This document shows positions 36,279 through 46,381 of a stretch of 53,828 nucleotides of DNA, piece after piece (the stretch's first letter is position 1; each line of letters starts with the position of its first letter). The stretch lies in IMG/VR virus record IMGVR_UViG_3300021062_000019, positions 1 through 53,828 of that record; one strand, given 5' to 3'. Under the pieces are notes generated by a model. It did not search any database, was not told the DNA's origin, and was given only the letters and a program-made list of their open reading frames with translations. The position numbers and the translations under genes are program-made. The stretch comes from a virus.

Positions 36279-36590
36279 CTAAATAACTTCGCTAATTATT
36301 TCTTTTTGTTTATCTTGTTTCAGGATCACAGCTAAGGCTTCTTTTGTGTTGTGTATAACGTGGACTTGCCCTCTCCACTCCTCATGCCATTTCTTTTCTA
36401 GCTTTGTTAATTGCCTTTTTGAAGGTGGCTGCTTAGGATCTTTGACCTCAAACAGGTAATTGCAGCCACGAAAAGATACTAATAAATCAGGACAACCATC
36501 ACGAACGCTAGCCAAGCTTTGCACGGCACATCCCATCTGTCTGAGTTCTGCTACTATTTGAGCTTGATTGCTATCTACACGAGAGGGCAT
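36279..36590 (-). CDS. VRR-NUC-type nuclease
   Basis: The 103-aa protein has the PD-(D/E)xK layout of VRR-NUC nucleases: an N-terminal helix with QAQIVAELRQMGC, catalytic Asp in GCPDLLV, then the Glu-x-Lys pair in YLFEVKDPKQPPSKRQLT, and a final helix/strand with EWRGQVHVIH. Phage members are thought to process branched or replication intermediates. The start overlaps the stop of the DUF5131 gene by 16 bp, and RecT is encoded two genes further upstream, so it may belong to a recombination set. Confidence 0.78.
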   Translation of the reverse strand: MPSRVDSNQAQIVAELRQMGCAVQSLASVRDGCPDLLVSFRGCNYLFEVKDPKQPPSKRQLTKLEKKWHEEWRGQVHVIHNTKEALAVILKQDKQKEIISEVI

Positions 36591-37420
36591 TGCCTACCCT
36601 CCACACTTGGGAAATCTGCCCATTGCCTACCATCTAAAACAGGGAGTGAGATCTTGTTTTTCTTCTCATCCATCGCTTGCTTGTAGAAGAAATCCACACC
36701 GAACTTTTTACACTGATCACGAAGCGACCTAACCCAATCGTCGCTCATAGGACGAACGCCTTTACCTTTGCCGCTTTCAGCCCCAGCAATAATCCACCTA
36801 ATTTTTGAATCATAAATATATTCTTGCATTATGTTAGTTACAGGATTAGAGATAGCTAAATATCTACTAATATCTATCTGCTCCAAAAGAGGCTCACAAC
36901 TTATAAATAAATTTCTAGCAGGAACTTGAAGGAGGAGAGGAAGAAATTTATCAACAGTTTTTTGGCTACCAGCACTAACACCAAACCAACAGTTATCAAG
37001 CTTATTTATAGTATCTCTATGGTTTCCTGTTTCCTCTAAAAACTTAATTAGATTTTCTGGCCTTTTAGTTAATATTAAAAATGTGTGCTGTTCGCATTTT
37101 TCTATCATTTCTAAAACATCGTGAATAAACCAAGTAGGCACATCTTTATGAAACAAGTCAGCCATTGAATTAACAAAAACCCTTTCAGGAGTTTTCCAAG
37201 TAAGAGGTAGTCTAAGTAAACTACGAATGATTTTTACTTCTCCTGTCCATCTAACGCCGTTCGAGGTTAGCTTGGTCAACCCTTCATAAGGTTGACCTTT
37301 CCCACTAAATCTGTGTGCTTGTTTTTCGGCATAACAATTTTGACATTCAGGAGCTACACGCTCGCAACCTCTAACAACATTCCAAACCTTAGTTGCCCAC
37401 TCAATTGTCGTGTCAGCCAT
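36575..37420 (-). CDS. DUF5131 family (Gp37/Gp68-like) protein
   Basis: The 281-aa protein starts with the family's signature: TTIEWATKVWNVVRGCERVA followed by PECQNCYAEKQA, with Cys residues spaced as in a radical-SAM-like cluster site. Further hallmarks are RVFVNSMADLFH, FLILTKRPENL, NCWFGVSAGSQ and WIIAGAESGKG. This family is frequent in phages, and no reaction is firmly assigned to it. A ribosome-binding site (AGGTAGG) precedes the ATG, and the stop overlaps the VRR-NUC gene. Confidence 0.85.
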   Translation of the reverse strand: MADTTIEWATKVWNVVRGCERVAPECQNCYAEKQAHRFSGKGQPYEGLTKLTSNGVRWTGEVKIIRSLLRLPLTWKTPERVFVNSMADLFHKDVPTWFIHDVLEMIEKCEQHTFLILTKRPENLIKFLEETGNHRDTINKLDNCWFGVSAGSQKTVDKFLPLLLQVPARNLFISCEPLLEQIDISRYLAISNPVTNIMQEYIYDSKIRWIIAGAESGKGKGVRPMSDDWVRSLRDQCKKFGVDFFYKQAMDEKKNKISLPVLDGRQWADFPSVEGRQCPLV

Positions 37421-38449
37421 TTACTTACCTACCTTCTGCTGCTTCTCAGTAGCTTCTTTGATAGCCTGCTTTTTCTTATTGATCCAGATTCGTAGCTGAC
37501 TATCCTCAAACTTGTCATAGCCCTTTGGTAGTCTGTCACAGTTAGGATCAACGCTTTCTAGCTCTGCTTGGAGGTCACAGAGTTGGCCTAGTAGAGGGTT
37601 AGGAGGAGGTGCTTCAACAACTGGCTCTGGCTGTATATCAATAAATGTATCTGTTTTGACTTCTTGTGTGGGTTGTGGCTCTGGAGCTTCTACTGGCAGT
37701 GTTGGTATATCAGCACTGGTTAGCTGAGGAACTCGTGAGTAATCAATCTCGTGTTGTTCTTCAATCTGGCTAGCTCGTTCAACTTTAGCTAAGCCTGGTA
37801 TGTTGTAGGGAAGTAGCTTGCATAATCTTTTGATTACAGTCTTTTTGGCCATCTCTGGATAATCAGTAACCCAGGGGCCGTTATTGGCTGATTTGGATTT
37901 CTTTCTAATGTGGTCAATATCTGCTCTCTCCATTACGCAATGCTTAACTCTGCCACTAGCGAGATAAGCAATTGCATAAGCTGCTACAACTTCACCTCTA
38001 TTTGTTCCTACTTTTTCAGGTGGCTTATGCTTAATAAAAGGATTGGTTCCTAATTCATATTGAAAGAAATCTTTTTCATAAACACATTCTGACACTATAT
38101 CCTCAACAAATCCTTGCTCTTCCACTAGCTGAATGTAGCCACGATAACCAATCTGAAACTTAGCTTCATTGCCATAAGGCACGAGCCAAGCTAGTCCTAA
38201 TTTATTAACTGGTAGTCCTAAAGTAGCTGCATCATAAGCTGCTAGCGCTATTGATTCTGCTGTACATTTTTGCAACGCTACAGAAGCTGCTACGGTCGTA
38301 ATAACACTTGCTATATACAAATCCGCGCTATGACCTTTAGGCAATACTTCTATAAACTTCGGTTTCATCGTTGCTAATAAAGCAGATACTTTCTTGGTTG
38401 GCACCAATTGTTGATTCTGATTCTGTTGACTCTGTGTTGTTGCTGACAT
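37421..38449 (-). CDS. recT: RecT family single-strand annealing protein
   Basis: The 342-aa protein matches RecT: an N-terminal helical part with CTAESIALAAYDAATLGLPV and WLVPYGNEAKFQIGYRGYIQ (the family's core motif), then YAIAYLASGRVKHCVMERAD and SANNGPWVTDYPEMAKKTVI. It anneals complementary strands during phage recombination. The last 100 residues are a Pro/Gln-rich linker and a charged tail. A strong GGAGGAGG precedes the start although that start lies inside the upstream gene (113-bp overlap). No RecE-like exonuclease is evident. Confidence 0.94.
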   Translation of the reverse strand: MSATTQSQQNQNQQLVPTKKVSALLATMKPKFIEVLPKGHSADLYIASVITTVAASVALQKCTAESIALAAYDAATLGLPVNKLGLAWLVPYGNEAKFQIGYRGYIQLVEEQGFVEDIVSECVYEKDFFQYELGTNPFIKHKPPEKVGTNRGEVVAAYAIAYLASGRVKHCVMERADIDHIRKKSKSANNGPWVTDYPEMAKKTVIKRLCKLLPYNIPGLAKVERASQIEEQHEIDYSRVPQLTSADIPTLPVEAPEPQPTQEVKTDTFIDIQPEPVVEAPPPNPLLGQLCDLQAELESVDPNCDRLPKGYDKFEDSQLRIWINKKKQAIKEATEKQQKVGK

Positions 38450-40875: not shown

Positions 40876-41868
40876 TCATTTAGTATTTTTCTCTAGGTAG
40901 GCAGATACATCAATGCCTGATAAGTGAAAACTTTCTTCCATCCTGGCTGTGAAAATTTTCTGTATTCGCCTTTTCTCGAAAAACGCATTCCAGCAAATAG
41001 CAACAGAGTTAACCACATCGAACCGAGTCAGGATCTTAGTTTTCCTACTAGCTTTCGTAGAAGTGCTTAACGCAGAGCTTAAAAGTAATTCTCTTAACAG
41101 TCTTGTTGGAGAATGTGTTTCTTTTATATCTCCCGTAGCAACTTCATACCAAAAGTTTTGTGCAACTTCTGGTTGGTGCTTAACAGTAATAAGACCCATA
41201 GCAAAACAAGGTACACTAAATAAGCGTTTCCCAAGACCAGTTCGCATTTTATTGGAAACAATAGAATTATATCGTTTTGCGTAGTGATACCACTCATCTA
41301 ATAAAGCAAGGGTGTTCATTCTAGAAAATTGATTTTTGTGCTTATTGGTGATTTCTAATCCTCTAGAAATAAAGTTAACTGCTGAACCTAGGTAGTTAAT
41401 GGTTTTATTTGACAAAGAATATTTTTCACTAAGAGAGTAGGCACTATACATATCTGCATAGCTTCTTATTACTGGAATATCAAAATGTGTATAAAGTTGG
41501 GCGATCTCGCCGTGATCGTCTACGTAGTATTTCTTTACTGGTAATCGCTGAGATTTACCTGAAACCCAAATAGCTTTTAAGGTGTGTTGGCCATTTATCA
41601 AATATTCTTTGTCGCCTACTACTGCAAAAGCTATAACTGTAGTAGGTTGAAAATTTCCCCTTTCCATTTCTGCAGCGAAAAACAACACTCTGTCTTTCTT
41701 CAAATCTCTTTGACCTTCATATTGACAGTAGGTGAGCCAGTAATCCGCAAGCTCTTTATCTATAAGCGTTTCATTTATTTCTGATGAGGATTGACCGATT
41801 ATTTGATTTTTAATAGTAGAGGTTTTTGTATCTACTATTGTCTTATGTTCGTTTGATGCTAATTGCAT
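40876..41868 (-). CDS. ParB/Srx-like phage protein
   Basis: The 330-aa protein contains, at about 55-110, an N-terminal ParB/sulfiredoxin-like fold: LFFAAEMERGNFQPTTVIAF then YLINGQHTLKAIWVSGKSQ, where NGQHTLKAI is the family's phosphate-binding turn, and then LPVKKYYVDD. The remaining 200 residues are helical (SYADMYSAYSLSEKYSLSN) and of unknown role. An AAGGAG site precedes the ATG. Phage members with this layout have no firmly assigned activity; DNA binding or nucleotide-dependent modification are possibilities. Confidence 0.68.
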   Translation of the reverse strand: MQLASNEHKTIVDTKTSTIKNQIIGQSSSEINETLIDKELADYWLTYCQYEGQRDLKKDRVLFFAAEMERGNFQPTTVIAFAVVGDKEYLINGQHTLKAIWVSGKSQRLPVKKYYVDDHGEIAQLYTHFDIPVIRSYADMYSAYSLSEKYSLSNKTINYLGSAVNFISRGLEITNKHKNQFSRMNTLALLDEWYHYAKRYNSIVSNKMRTGLGKRLFSVPCFAMGLITVKHQPEVAQNFWYEVATGDIKETHSPTRLLRELLLSSALSTSTKASRKTKILTRFDVVNSVAICWNAFFEKRRIQKIFTARMEESFHLSGIDVSAYLEKNTK

Positions 41869-42801: not shown

Positions 42802-43113
42802 TTAGTCTTGACGCAACACACTATCGTGTGTATTCTTTTTCTCTATAGGAATTGCAAATTTGCCCAGCAATTCTTCTCGTAGAAGAAAAAGTTTGGCGAT
42901 AAACTCGCCACCAGGGTCTTTTAATCCAGCTTCCCAATCTTGGATGCTCCTAACACTACAAGCTAATCTTTGTGCTAGTTCAGCTTGGGTATAGCCAGCT
43001 AAAGACCTAGTGTTCTTAACTAAAGTCTGTAAATTAACTTTTGGTAATTCTTCTAACATTTTTTCTTGTTTGCTCATACCGCAATTATATGTGGTCTGTG
43101 TGGCAAATTCCAT
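42802..43113 (-). CDS. XRE-family repressor candidate
   Basis: The 103-aa protein carries an XRE helix-turn-helix at about 33-85: LVKNTRSLAGYTQAELAQRL, then ACSVRSIQDWEAGLKDPGGE. An AAAGGAAAG site precedes the ATG. It is encoded immediately upstream of the operator-bearing leftward promoter and next to a divergently oriented exported-protein gene, the layout of a lysogeny control region. It is short for a classic CI repressor and has no peptidase domain, so it may be Cro-like or a minimal repressor. Confidence 0.82.
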   Translation of the reverse strand: MEFATQTTYNCGMSKQEKMLEELPKVNLQTLVKNTRSLAGYTQAELAQRLACSVRSIQDWEAGLKDPGGEFIAKLFLLREELLGKFAIPIEKKNTHDSVLRQD

Positions 43114-43329: not shown

Positions 43330-43947
43330 ATGAGAGTAATACTGTCTATAGCATTAGTGCTATCTTTTTGCTTACTATCATTTGCTCAAGACCAACAACA
43401 GCAACCACCGCCTAAAAAGAAAACCGTAACCCTTGATATGAACGATTTTAAGGCAGCACCGAAAGAGGAAGATCCGCCAGCAGAGGAAACGAAAGAAACG
43501 GACGACAAAGATAAAGGAGGTGATAAGGAAAAAACGGTCAAAGACCAACCCTTAGCCGAAGCAGAAGCCGCTTTACTAGCTCATAAATCCTTTGTTAGTA
43601 CTGTAGGCGGTCAAACGCTCTCTACCTTTATAAACCATAGAAATAATACGCTAAAAGACGATCAAAAATTTTTACTACGAGAAAAACTTCCTAGAGATTT
43701 AGCGGATGTACAAGAACGGCTGAAAAAAGCTCGGTCACTTTGGGATGAATATTTCACCCTCTGGGGCAAGGAAATAAATGCTGACGTTAATAAAAATTAC
43801 ATACTTCAAGCAGAGTATTTAGACAAAATGAAATCGTGCGAAACCCAGGTAAAAAATAATATCGAATTATCTGAAGGTGCAATTAAGCAATACAAGGATA
43901 AGAAGAAAAAAGAAAAGGAATCCAAAGAATCTAACGAAACTAAATAG
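43330..43947 (+). CDS. Exported protein, lysogenic-conversion candidate
   Basis: The 205-aa protein begins with a clear Sec signal peptide (MRVILSIALVLSFCLLSFAQ), then a Pro/Glu/Lys/Asp-rich disordered part (about 25-75) and a helical region (about 80-195) ending in a Lys/Glu-rich tail. It is an isolated rightward gene inside leftward DNA, adjacent to the repressor, and is closed by its own terminator: the classic layout of a moron expressed from a prophage. No domain identifies its activity. Confidence 0.7.
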   Translation: MRVILSIALVLSFCLLSFAQDQQQQPPPKKKTVTLDMNDFKAAPKEEDPPAEETKETDDKDKGGDKEKTVKDQPLAEAEAALLAHKSFVSTVGGQTLSTFINHRNNTLKDDQKFLLREKLPRDLADVQERLKKARSLWDEYFTLWGKEINADVNKNYILQAEYLDKMKSCETQVKNNIELSEGAIKQYKDKKKKEKESKESNETK

Positions 43948-44248: not shown

Positions 44249-44467
44249 TCACGCCATCTTACTAGCTTTATAATCGGCTTCTTCATCGGCATCAATACTA
44301 CTCATTGTTAGCTTTACATAATCAGGAATAGGCTTTTTACCGTTTTCCCAATCAGAAACCTCAGCAGCATTGACCTTGATAATTTTTGCCCACTCTCGTA
44401 ATGATAAATCGTGTTGCTCTCGCCACTCTCTATGCTGTTTGCCTTGCTCTATTAAATCGCTCATCAC
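44249..44467 (-). CDS. Small XRE-type HTH protein
   Basis: The 72-aa protein is nearly all helix-turn-helix: HDLSLREWAKIIKVNAAEVS then DWENGKKPIPDYVKLTM. An AAAGGA site precedes the ATG. It is in the leftward accessory group with the alpha-CTD-like gene just upstream. It may be a local regulator (inference). Confidence 0.75.
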   Translation of the reverse strand: MMSDLIEQGKQHREWREQHDLSLREWAKIIKVNAAEVSDWENGKKPIPDYVKLTMSSIDADEEADYKASKMA

Positions 44468-44498
44468 TAGTTCCTTTCAATCGTGGGGTGTTTCCCAC

Positions 44499-44885
44499 CT
44501 ATTCCTTGAGCTTGTAGCCAAAACCTGCAAGTCTTTCTTTAATCTCAGCCAATGATTTTCTGCCAGCATTCTTAAAAGCTAGATAATCAGCTTCGGTCAA
44601 GTTGAGCAGGTCGCCCAAGGTTCTGATACCGTTTTCCATTAATCTACTAAAAGCCTTCTCAGATAAACCTAACTGGTATATATAAGTTTCTCTCCCAGGC
44701 TTAAACCCTGCTTTAACATCTAGAGTATTAAGTCTATCTTTGAATTCTAGGAGCAGATTTTTATACTCCTGCTTATGCTCCCAAACATCCGACTCTGCTT
44801 CTATCTTGGTTTGCAATACTTCAATGGTTGCCGTTAGTTCGCCTAAAGCGAATGGTATTGCTCGACTTACTGCTATCTTGCTCAT
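44499..44885 (-). CDS. Free-standing RNA polymerase alpha-CTD-like protein
   Basis: Residues 68-127 align well with the C-terminal domain of the RNA polymerase alpha subunit: IYQLGLSEKAFSRLMENGIR, then TLGDLLNLTEADYLAFKNAG, then RKSLAEIKERLAGFGYKL. The helix-hairpin-helix residues Gly108, Lys110, Ser111 and Glu114 match the DNA-contacting set of the bacterial domain, whereas the positions equivalent to E. coli Arg265 and Asn268 are Lys77 and Ser80. Residues 1-60 are helical and lack the alpha-NTD assembly fold. The protein could compete with host alpha-CTD at promoters or bring phage factors to polymerase (inference). A GGAGGAG site precedes the ATG. Confidence 0.88.
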   Translation of the reverse strand: MSKIAVSRAIPFALGELTATIEVLQTKIEAESDVWEHKQEYKNLLLEFKDRLNTLDVKAGFKPGRETYIYQLGLSEKAFSRLMENGIRTLGDLLNLTEADYLAFKNAGRKSLAEIKERLAGFGYKLKE

Positions 44886-45298
44886 TAGTATCTCCTCCTG
44901 CTCCTTTTACATTTCACAAAGTATCTATTACTTGCTCCTACTCGCTTGCAATGCTGGAGCTGCTGTTGTGCGTGGTGATTCGCCAATTGCCTTTGCTCGC
45001 TTAGCACTACCTTTCTAGGTATTGGTTCGGATGGTAACAAGGACTTAAAAGCCTTAATGGATTCTTCACAAACCTTATGGACAGCCTGAGCAAATTCATC
45101 TACCCAGCTAATCAATGTGTAATCTGGCTCTGCATCGACGAGTTCTAATAGCTCAGCAAAGGTGTTAGGCACTACTAGGTTATAGTTTTGGAATACTATT
45201 TTTGCATCGCCACAGTAGTTACCTTGAGTCGGAACTGGGTTTTGCTCTGGCAGTGCTAGTTGTCCCTGAAAGTAGAAGATTTTTATTAAGTCGCTCAT
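44885..45298 (-). CDS. Hypothetical protein upstream of the alpha-CTD-like gene
   Basis: The 137-aa product shares one base with the alpha-CTD-like gene and overlaps the zinc-finger gene start/stop by 4 bases, so all three are probably co-translated. It has an alpha/beta N-terminus (IKIFYFQGQLALPEQNP), an acidic helical middle (FAELLELVDAEPDY) and a strongly basic C-terminus (KCKRSRRRY) that could touch nucleic acid. No family is recognised. Confidence 0.62.
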   Translation of the reverse strand: MSDLIKIFYFQGQLALPEQNPVPTQGNYCGDAKIVFQNYNLVVPNTFAELLELVDAEPDYTLISWVDEFAQAVHKVCEESIKAFKSLLPSEPIPRKVVLSEQRQLANHHAQQQLQHCKRVGASNRYFVKCKRSRRRY

Positions 45299-46049: not shown

Positions 46050-46304
46050 TTATTTCTTAGTCTGAGGCCAATACTTGAATTTAGGCTCTATTCGAATCCC
46101 TTTATCTACTTCAAGTCGCTTGATATAAATGAACAATTTGGCTACAGATTGACCGTCTGGCTCTGTGTCGCCATTTCTCCACTGATAATAAGTTTTCAGG
46201 TTGAAACCAAGTAACGCAGCTAATTCTTTAGGTTTTAGTCCGGTTTCTTTCTCGATGTCGTTCACTAGAGCTTTTAGGTCAACCTCCCAAGGAGAGTCAA
46301 CCAT
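46050..46304 (-). CDS. HTH protein between two direct repeats
   Basis: The start is placed at ATG 46304 (MVDSPWEV); the longer frame begins with TTG. No Shine-Dalgarno is visible before this ATG, and a TATTAT lies about 6 nt upstream, so a leaderless mRNA is possible. The 84-aa protein has an XRE-like fold: IEKETGLKPKELAALLGFNL, then KTYYQWRNGDTEPDGQSVAK. It is bracketed by repeats R1 and R2, suggesting autoregulation of two flanking transcription units (inference). Confidence 0.7.
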   Translation of the reverse strand: MVDSPWEVDLKALVNDIEKETGLKPKELAALLGFNLKTYYQWRNGDTEPDGQSVAKLFIYIKRLEVDKGIRIEPKFKYWPQTKK

Positions 46305-46381
46305 TCGCGCATAATAACTAAGCAACGGATTTCATGCTAGGCGGAATGGAAGATAAATTTTTATGAAAAATTTCCGGGTTA

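Follow-up and report, generated by a model that had tools for sequence, protein, structure and literature searches.

The C-terminal half of a 128-residue protein encoded by a temperate tailed phage is a genuine homologue of the RNA polymerase α-subunit C-terminal domain (α-CTD), and the rest of α is absent from the phage record. The window, that is the whole stretch of DNA analysed, is IMG/VR record IMGVR_UViG_3300021062_000019, of 53,828 nucleotides. The gene lies at 44499-44885, as a sequence-only reading of this DNA had proposed, and is on the minus strand (Table 1). We propose, with a probability of about 40%, that its product is a small early phage DNA-binding regulator built on the α-CTD module; a faithful UP-element decoy is less likely.

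Table 1. Positions of the α-CTD gene, its parts and its neighbours in the window
Feature	Position	Strand	Basis
Free α-CTD protein gene	44499..44885	minus	open frame of 128 aa from the ATG at 44885 to a stop that ends at 44499
N-terminal helical part, residues 1-62	44700..44885	minus	AlphaFold2 helices, lower confidence
α-CTD domain, residues 66-128	44502..44690	minus	PF03118, PDB, AlphaFold2 and Foldseek matches
K77-S80, changed counterparts of E. coli R265 and N268	44646..44657	minus	alignment
HhH motif N106-E114	44544..44570	minus	alignment to E. coli α
Shine-Dalgarno-like AGGAGGAG, six bases ahead of ATG	44892..44899	minus	sequence
Coupled upstream gene, 137 aa, basic tail	44885..45298	minus	no match in Pfam or NCBIfam, none convincing in PHROGs
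Coupled Cys-rich protein, 80 aa	45295..45537	minus	weakly like HNH-endonuclease zinc modules
HTH_3 regulator gene downstream, possibly same transcript	44249..44467	minus	profile match

The Pfam model RNA_pol_A_CTD (PF03118) matched residues 66-120 (E 7.2e-14; 51.7 bits for a cut-off of 23.8), almost over its full length (model positions 12-66 of 67). The top PDB sequence matches were RNA polymerase α-CTDs (E 1e-7), the nearest helix-hairpin-helix (HhH) protein from outside RNA polymerase being a DNA ligase at E 0.14. NCBIfam rpoA models matched the α-CTD part at 1e-12 but, as the protein lacks the N-terminal domain (α-NTD), far under the cut-offs set for the whole subunit. No RNA_pol_L (α-NTD) match and no second α-CTD were found in the 53.8-kb record, which rules out a complete rpoA within it; with the α-NTD absent and the rpoA equivalog cut-offs widely missed, the protein does not belong to RpoA. 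This is a phage gene, sharing its record with others, and it encodes an α-CTD without an α-NTD, as the sequence-only reading had claimed.

AlphaFold2 run without an alignment gave a pLDDT of 51 for the protein, too low to be informative. Supplied with 45 aligned α-CTDs, it placed residues 61-128 at pLDDT 91-97 and predicted, with lower confidence, two helices in the N-terminus (4-31 and 35-58), where a helical segment had been anticipated. All 36 Foldseek matches in the PDB with E <= 0.001 were RNA polymerase α structures. Because the alignment given to AlphaFold2 was made of α-CTDs, the fold is only partly independent evidence; the sequence matches are fully so. A generic repair-type HhH protein, the outcome that would have spoken against α-CTD identity, is excluded by the PDB sequence search together with Foldseek.

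Homology searches found no relatives of the N-terminal part (residues 1-62) or of the whole protein, and no DNA-level relatives of the segment 43900-46400 were found among phage records. Since there is no whole-protein homologue, conservation does not argue for any particular function. Heptads in the N-terminus are suggestive and fall short of significance, and an N-terminal coiled coil was not retained. In a tree of 106 α-CTDs (63 columns) the window copy has an exceptionally long branch (97th percentile), and the tree did not resolve its position. Its median identity to α-CTDs of the probable host class is about 41%, too low for a recent copy of the host gene.

That the record belongs to a temperate tailed phage is clear. 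Its plus strand carries terminase, tape measure, endolysin and DnaB genes, and the terminase, tape measure, endolysin and integrase on the contig rule out mis-binned host DNA. The IMG/VR contig showed no end repeats. Relatives of the terminase, at 37-46% identity, occurred in 4 of 162 genomes of one bacterial class. A phylum-wide sample (396 genomes, from the phylum of a locus labelled "uncultured Acidobacteria") gave only two matches, both in that class, and 298 genomes from a further phylum, that of a Gemmatimonadaceae locus, gave no match. On this distribution an Acidobacteriota host is likely, though short of proof. One α-CTD match each was the rule among genomes of the probable host class; in one that has a terminase relative (G072), the phage protein matched only the rpoA-size gene. 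Three others (G276, G355 and G412) gave two rpoA-size α matches each, either true paralogues or contamination of the metagenome-assembled genomes (MAGs).

Alignment to E. coli α showed that the HhH residues N294, G296, K298, S299 and E302 are kept (N106, G108, K110, S111 and E114), as is E286 of the 287 region. R265 and N268 are changed to K77 and S80, and the acidic D258, D259 and E261 are replaced by Y70, Q71 and G73. The residue assignments made from the sequence alone, Lys77 and Ser80 as changed and Gly108, Lys110, Ser111 and Glu114 as kept, are thus correct on the alignment, and N106 can be added to the latter. The window copy therefore lacks the Arg265 and Asn268 pair of an UP-element-reading α-CTD. 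In E. coli, R265 and N294 reach into the minor groove, with K298 touching phosphate (PMC7822876); DNA binding depends critically on R265 and N268, and an UP element no longer activates when N268 is substituted (PMC11434276). As both residues are needed there, the DNA affinity of the window α-CTD may be low (PMC11434276, PMC7822876).

This makes the window copy unusual, because every other domain in the comparison sets that covers the R265 position has Arg there: 30/30 distinct rpoA domains of the probable host group, 39/39 phage domains and 107/107 other domains, the phage set and the 107-domain set having been gathered with HhH-motif or window-derived patterns. The N268 position is mostly Asn in the other IMG/VR phage copies; L011 and L013, for example, have both the Arg and the Asn. 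Given this way of gathering, and since Rhodococcus phage Finch, outside these sets, has Gln at R265, loss of the arginine appears to be rare rather than unique. The change of an arginine kept by nearly all the others makes the window copy a natural test of α-CTD drift.

The α-CTD gene comes last in a coupled set of three, after the genes for the 80-residue Cys-rich and the 137-residue basic-tailed proteins. The last base of the TAA that ends the 137-residue gene is also the first of its ATG (TAATG), and the 137-residue gene overlaps the 80-residue gene by ATGA; the basic tail has a net charge of +10 from residue 91 on. It had been suggested that these genes form a small transcription-takeover cluster. 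Translational coupling is borne out by both junctions and by the Shine-Dalgarno-like sequence; the takeover role is not, the 137-residue protein being without a family match and the 80-residue one only weakly like HNH zinc modules. Between the α-CTD gene and the HTH_3 gene there are 31 bases, in which an inverted repeat, GTGGGGTGTTTCCCAC, follows the stop codon at 44483-44498, a possible operator or mRNA hairpin. RNA structure at the 3′ end of the α-CTD gene was not significant (z -0.49), and promoter-scan matches were no more frequent than in shuffles.

Three HTH genes surround the α-CTD gene (44249-44467, 42802-43113 and 46050-46325). A mostly minus-strand run of genes, from about 46.3 to 32.1 kb, includes the coupled set, further HTH genes, RecT (37421-38449, 6 kb from the α-CTD gene and on the same strand), an endonuclease-like gene and DUF5131 (36279-37420), and is closed on the far side by the integrase. 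Within this run, a plus-strand gene (43330-43947) encodes a secreted-looking Lys/Glu-rich protein, and a minus-strand gene (40876-41868) a 330-residue protein with a ParB-like motif seen by eye, whose sole match is the uncharacterised phrog_5931 (E 7e-17).

Free α-CTDs are not restricted to this phage. Scanning viral_contigs with one conserved α-CTD pattern yielded 46 loci, all free α-CTD proteins, with no rpoA among them; pooled with an earlier scan, they amount to 40 distinct domain sequences with very different N- or C-terminal parts (L006-L013, L101-L146). Fusion partners include σ70 region 4 (L102 and L135), an XRE HTH (L141) and a weak Mor-like match (L146). In the two σ fusions (L102:4482-5186 and L135:4449-5186), region 4 (E 1e-8 and 8e-15) and the α-CTD are in one polypeptide; in RNA polymerase the two lie side by side at the -35/UP junction. 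RecT, a RecE-like exonuclease, SSB or Sak4 adjoins the α-CTD gene in seven loci (L101, L102, L111, L119, L125, L139 and L140), and terminase and portal genes are near it in L133. With such neighbours, these loci are real phage regions. A resolvase-like recombinase lies within about 5 kb of the α-CTD gene in six of them (L139, L140, L137, L110, L124 and L125). PHROGs scans of ten phage α-CTD proteins gave no family for the domain itself beyond weak matches.

Nor is the kind new, since free phage α-CTDs already figure in public annotation, without demonstrated function. BFVD holds proteins named "RNA polymerase, alpha subunit, C-terminal" from uncultured Caudovirales, and named proteins of Mycobacterium phage Mithril and Rhodococcus phage Finch. 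Among the UniProt/BFVD Caudovirales proteins (A0A6J5QDR9, A0A6J7WD60, A0A6J5L490 and others), which are likewise phage-encoded free α-CTDs, the first four matches are 131-139 residues long, near the size of the window protein; structural alignments of the first five show, however, 20-40% identity. We know of no function for them. Cultured phages with α-CTD genes are Bacillus phage vB_BmeM-Goe8 (host Bacillus megaterium), where it is gene 5 and lies close to the left genome end, Ruegeria phage vB_RpoS-V16 (gene 23; host Ruegeria pomeroyi) and Finch. As in the window, the protein that carries the domain is not RpoA, being too short or of another architecture, but the partner regions differ, and Goe8 and V16 keep both R265 and N268. 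Matches in the named Salmonella and Listeria phage records examined were complete bacterial rpoA, i.e. contamination. A literature search, with most subscription journals outside it, found no paper on free phage α-CTDs.

Within RNA polymerase, it is the α-CTD that many bacterial activators and UP elements act upon. A free copy might serve as a decoy, or dominant-negative, occupying UP elements or activator surfaces and starving host promoters of α-CTD contacts during takeover. The shared fold and HhH face and the kept residue of the 287 region agree with this; but a decoy should keep the competing surfaces, and here the σ-facing acidic positions are lost along with R265 and N268, on which UP-element binding depends in E. 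coli, whereas nearly all the other phage copies in the set keep both. A takeover toxin would, moreover, be unexpected in the control region of a temperate phage. We hold the UP-element decoy, one of the roles first suggested for this protein, to be unlikely. An adaptor that brings in phage regulators, another of those suggestions, is a possible role. The same loss of R265 and N268 with retention of the fold could mean that DNA binding has largely gone and that the domain contacts a host or phage regulator, for instance a usual partner of α-CTD, and inhibits or tethers it. The α-CTD is indeed the target of many activators (PMC11434276), but the backbone contacts N294, K298 and S299 have been kept, and such a role seems distinctly unlikely.

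The frequent recombination genes raise another alternative, in which the HhH domain would serve recombination or replication as a non-transcriptional DNA-binding module, α-CTD being only its ancestral source. The seven phage loci, and RecT in the window, are in its favour. Early operons nevertheless mix recombination and regulatory genes, which makes proximity weak evidence, and other copies are fused to σ region 4 or HTH domains; we find this explanation improbable.

A small DNA-binding regulator is favoured over a faithful UP-element decoy because the backbone contacts are kept, the groove reader is probably weakened and the σ-facing patch lost, because the N-terminus is helical, and because HTH genes are neighbours here and σ-region-4 or HTH domains are fusion partners in other phages. 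That the gene shares its minus-strand region with RecT and the integrase, and that gene 5 of Goe8 is near a genome end, support the regulator as well. It would be expressed from the early, or lysogeny-control, side of the phage. Its HhH module would retain the backbone-gripping face, with a minor-groove reader that is probably weakened, and the N-terminal helices would probably pair the protein with itself or with a partner. Acting in trans near promoters, the module may offer, at phage promoters, an extra α-CTD-like contact to phage HTH regulators or to host polymerase, and would not read UP elements as the host α-CTD does. Against the regulator stand the possibly low DNA affinity, the non-significant heptads and the recurrent RecE, RecT and SSB neighbours in other phages.

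The comparison with RpoA summarises what has been retained. The α-CTD is nearly full-length with the same predicted fold, but without the α-NTD the window protein is incapable of polymerase assembly, and it has another, helical N-terminus. The IMG/VR free α-CTDs share the module, with varied extensions, and the window copy is one more, unusually altered, member of this phage group. Widespread phage genes with an α-CTD alone, several of them fused to σ region 4 or HTH domains, could represent an unstudied route to steer host polymerase. A broader proposal, which we regard as rather unlikely, is that phages repeatedly detach the α-CTD and fuse it with regulators, with pieces of σ region 4 or with helical segments, making trans-acting promoter modules; in the window copy, the altered UP-element reader would then serve phage promoters or regulators only.

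Use of the domain outside RNA polymerase is shared with cellular proteins of planctomycetes, clostridia and the BREX system (PglW; also in PMC12839542), although these are large and multidomain, and R265 is kept in those compared. Many of L016-L094, mostly from planctomycetes, have two α-CTDs behind TPR-like repeats, an arrangement frequent in planctomycetes. Two clostridial MAGs (L063 and L064) encode a helicase-like part, with a σ-region-4-like stretch seen by eye, followed by two α-CTDs, and a Chloroflexi MAG (L065:7740-8213) encodes a 158-residue protein joining what looks by eye like a ribosomal protein L31-like zinc protein to an α-CTD. Genes with the annotation RNA polymerase subunit alpha occur on many Streptomyces plasmids.
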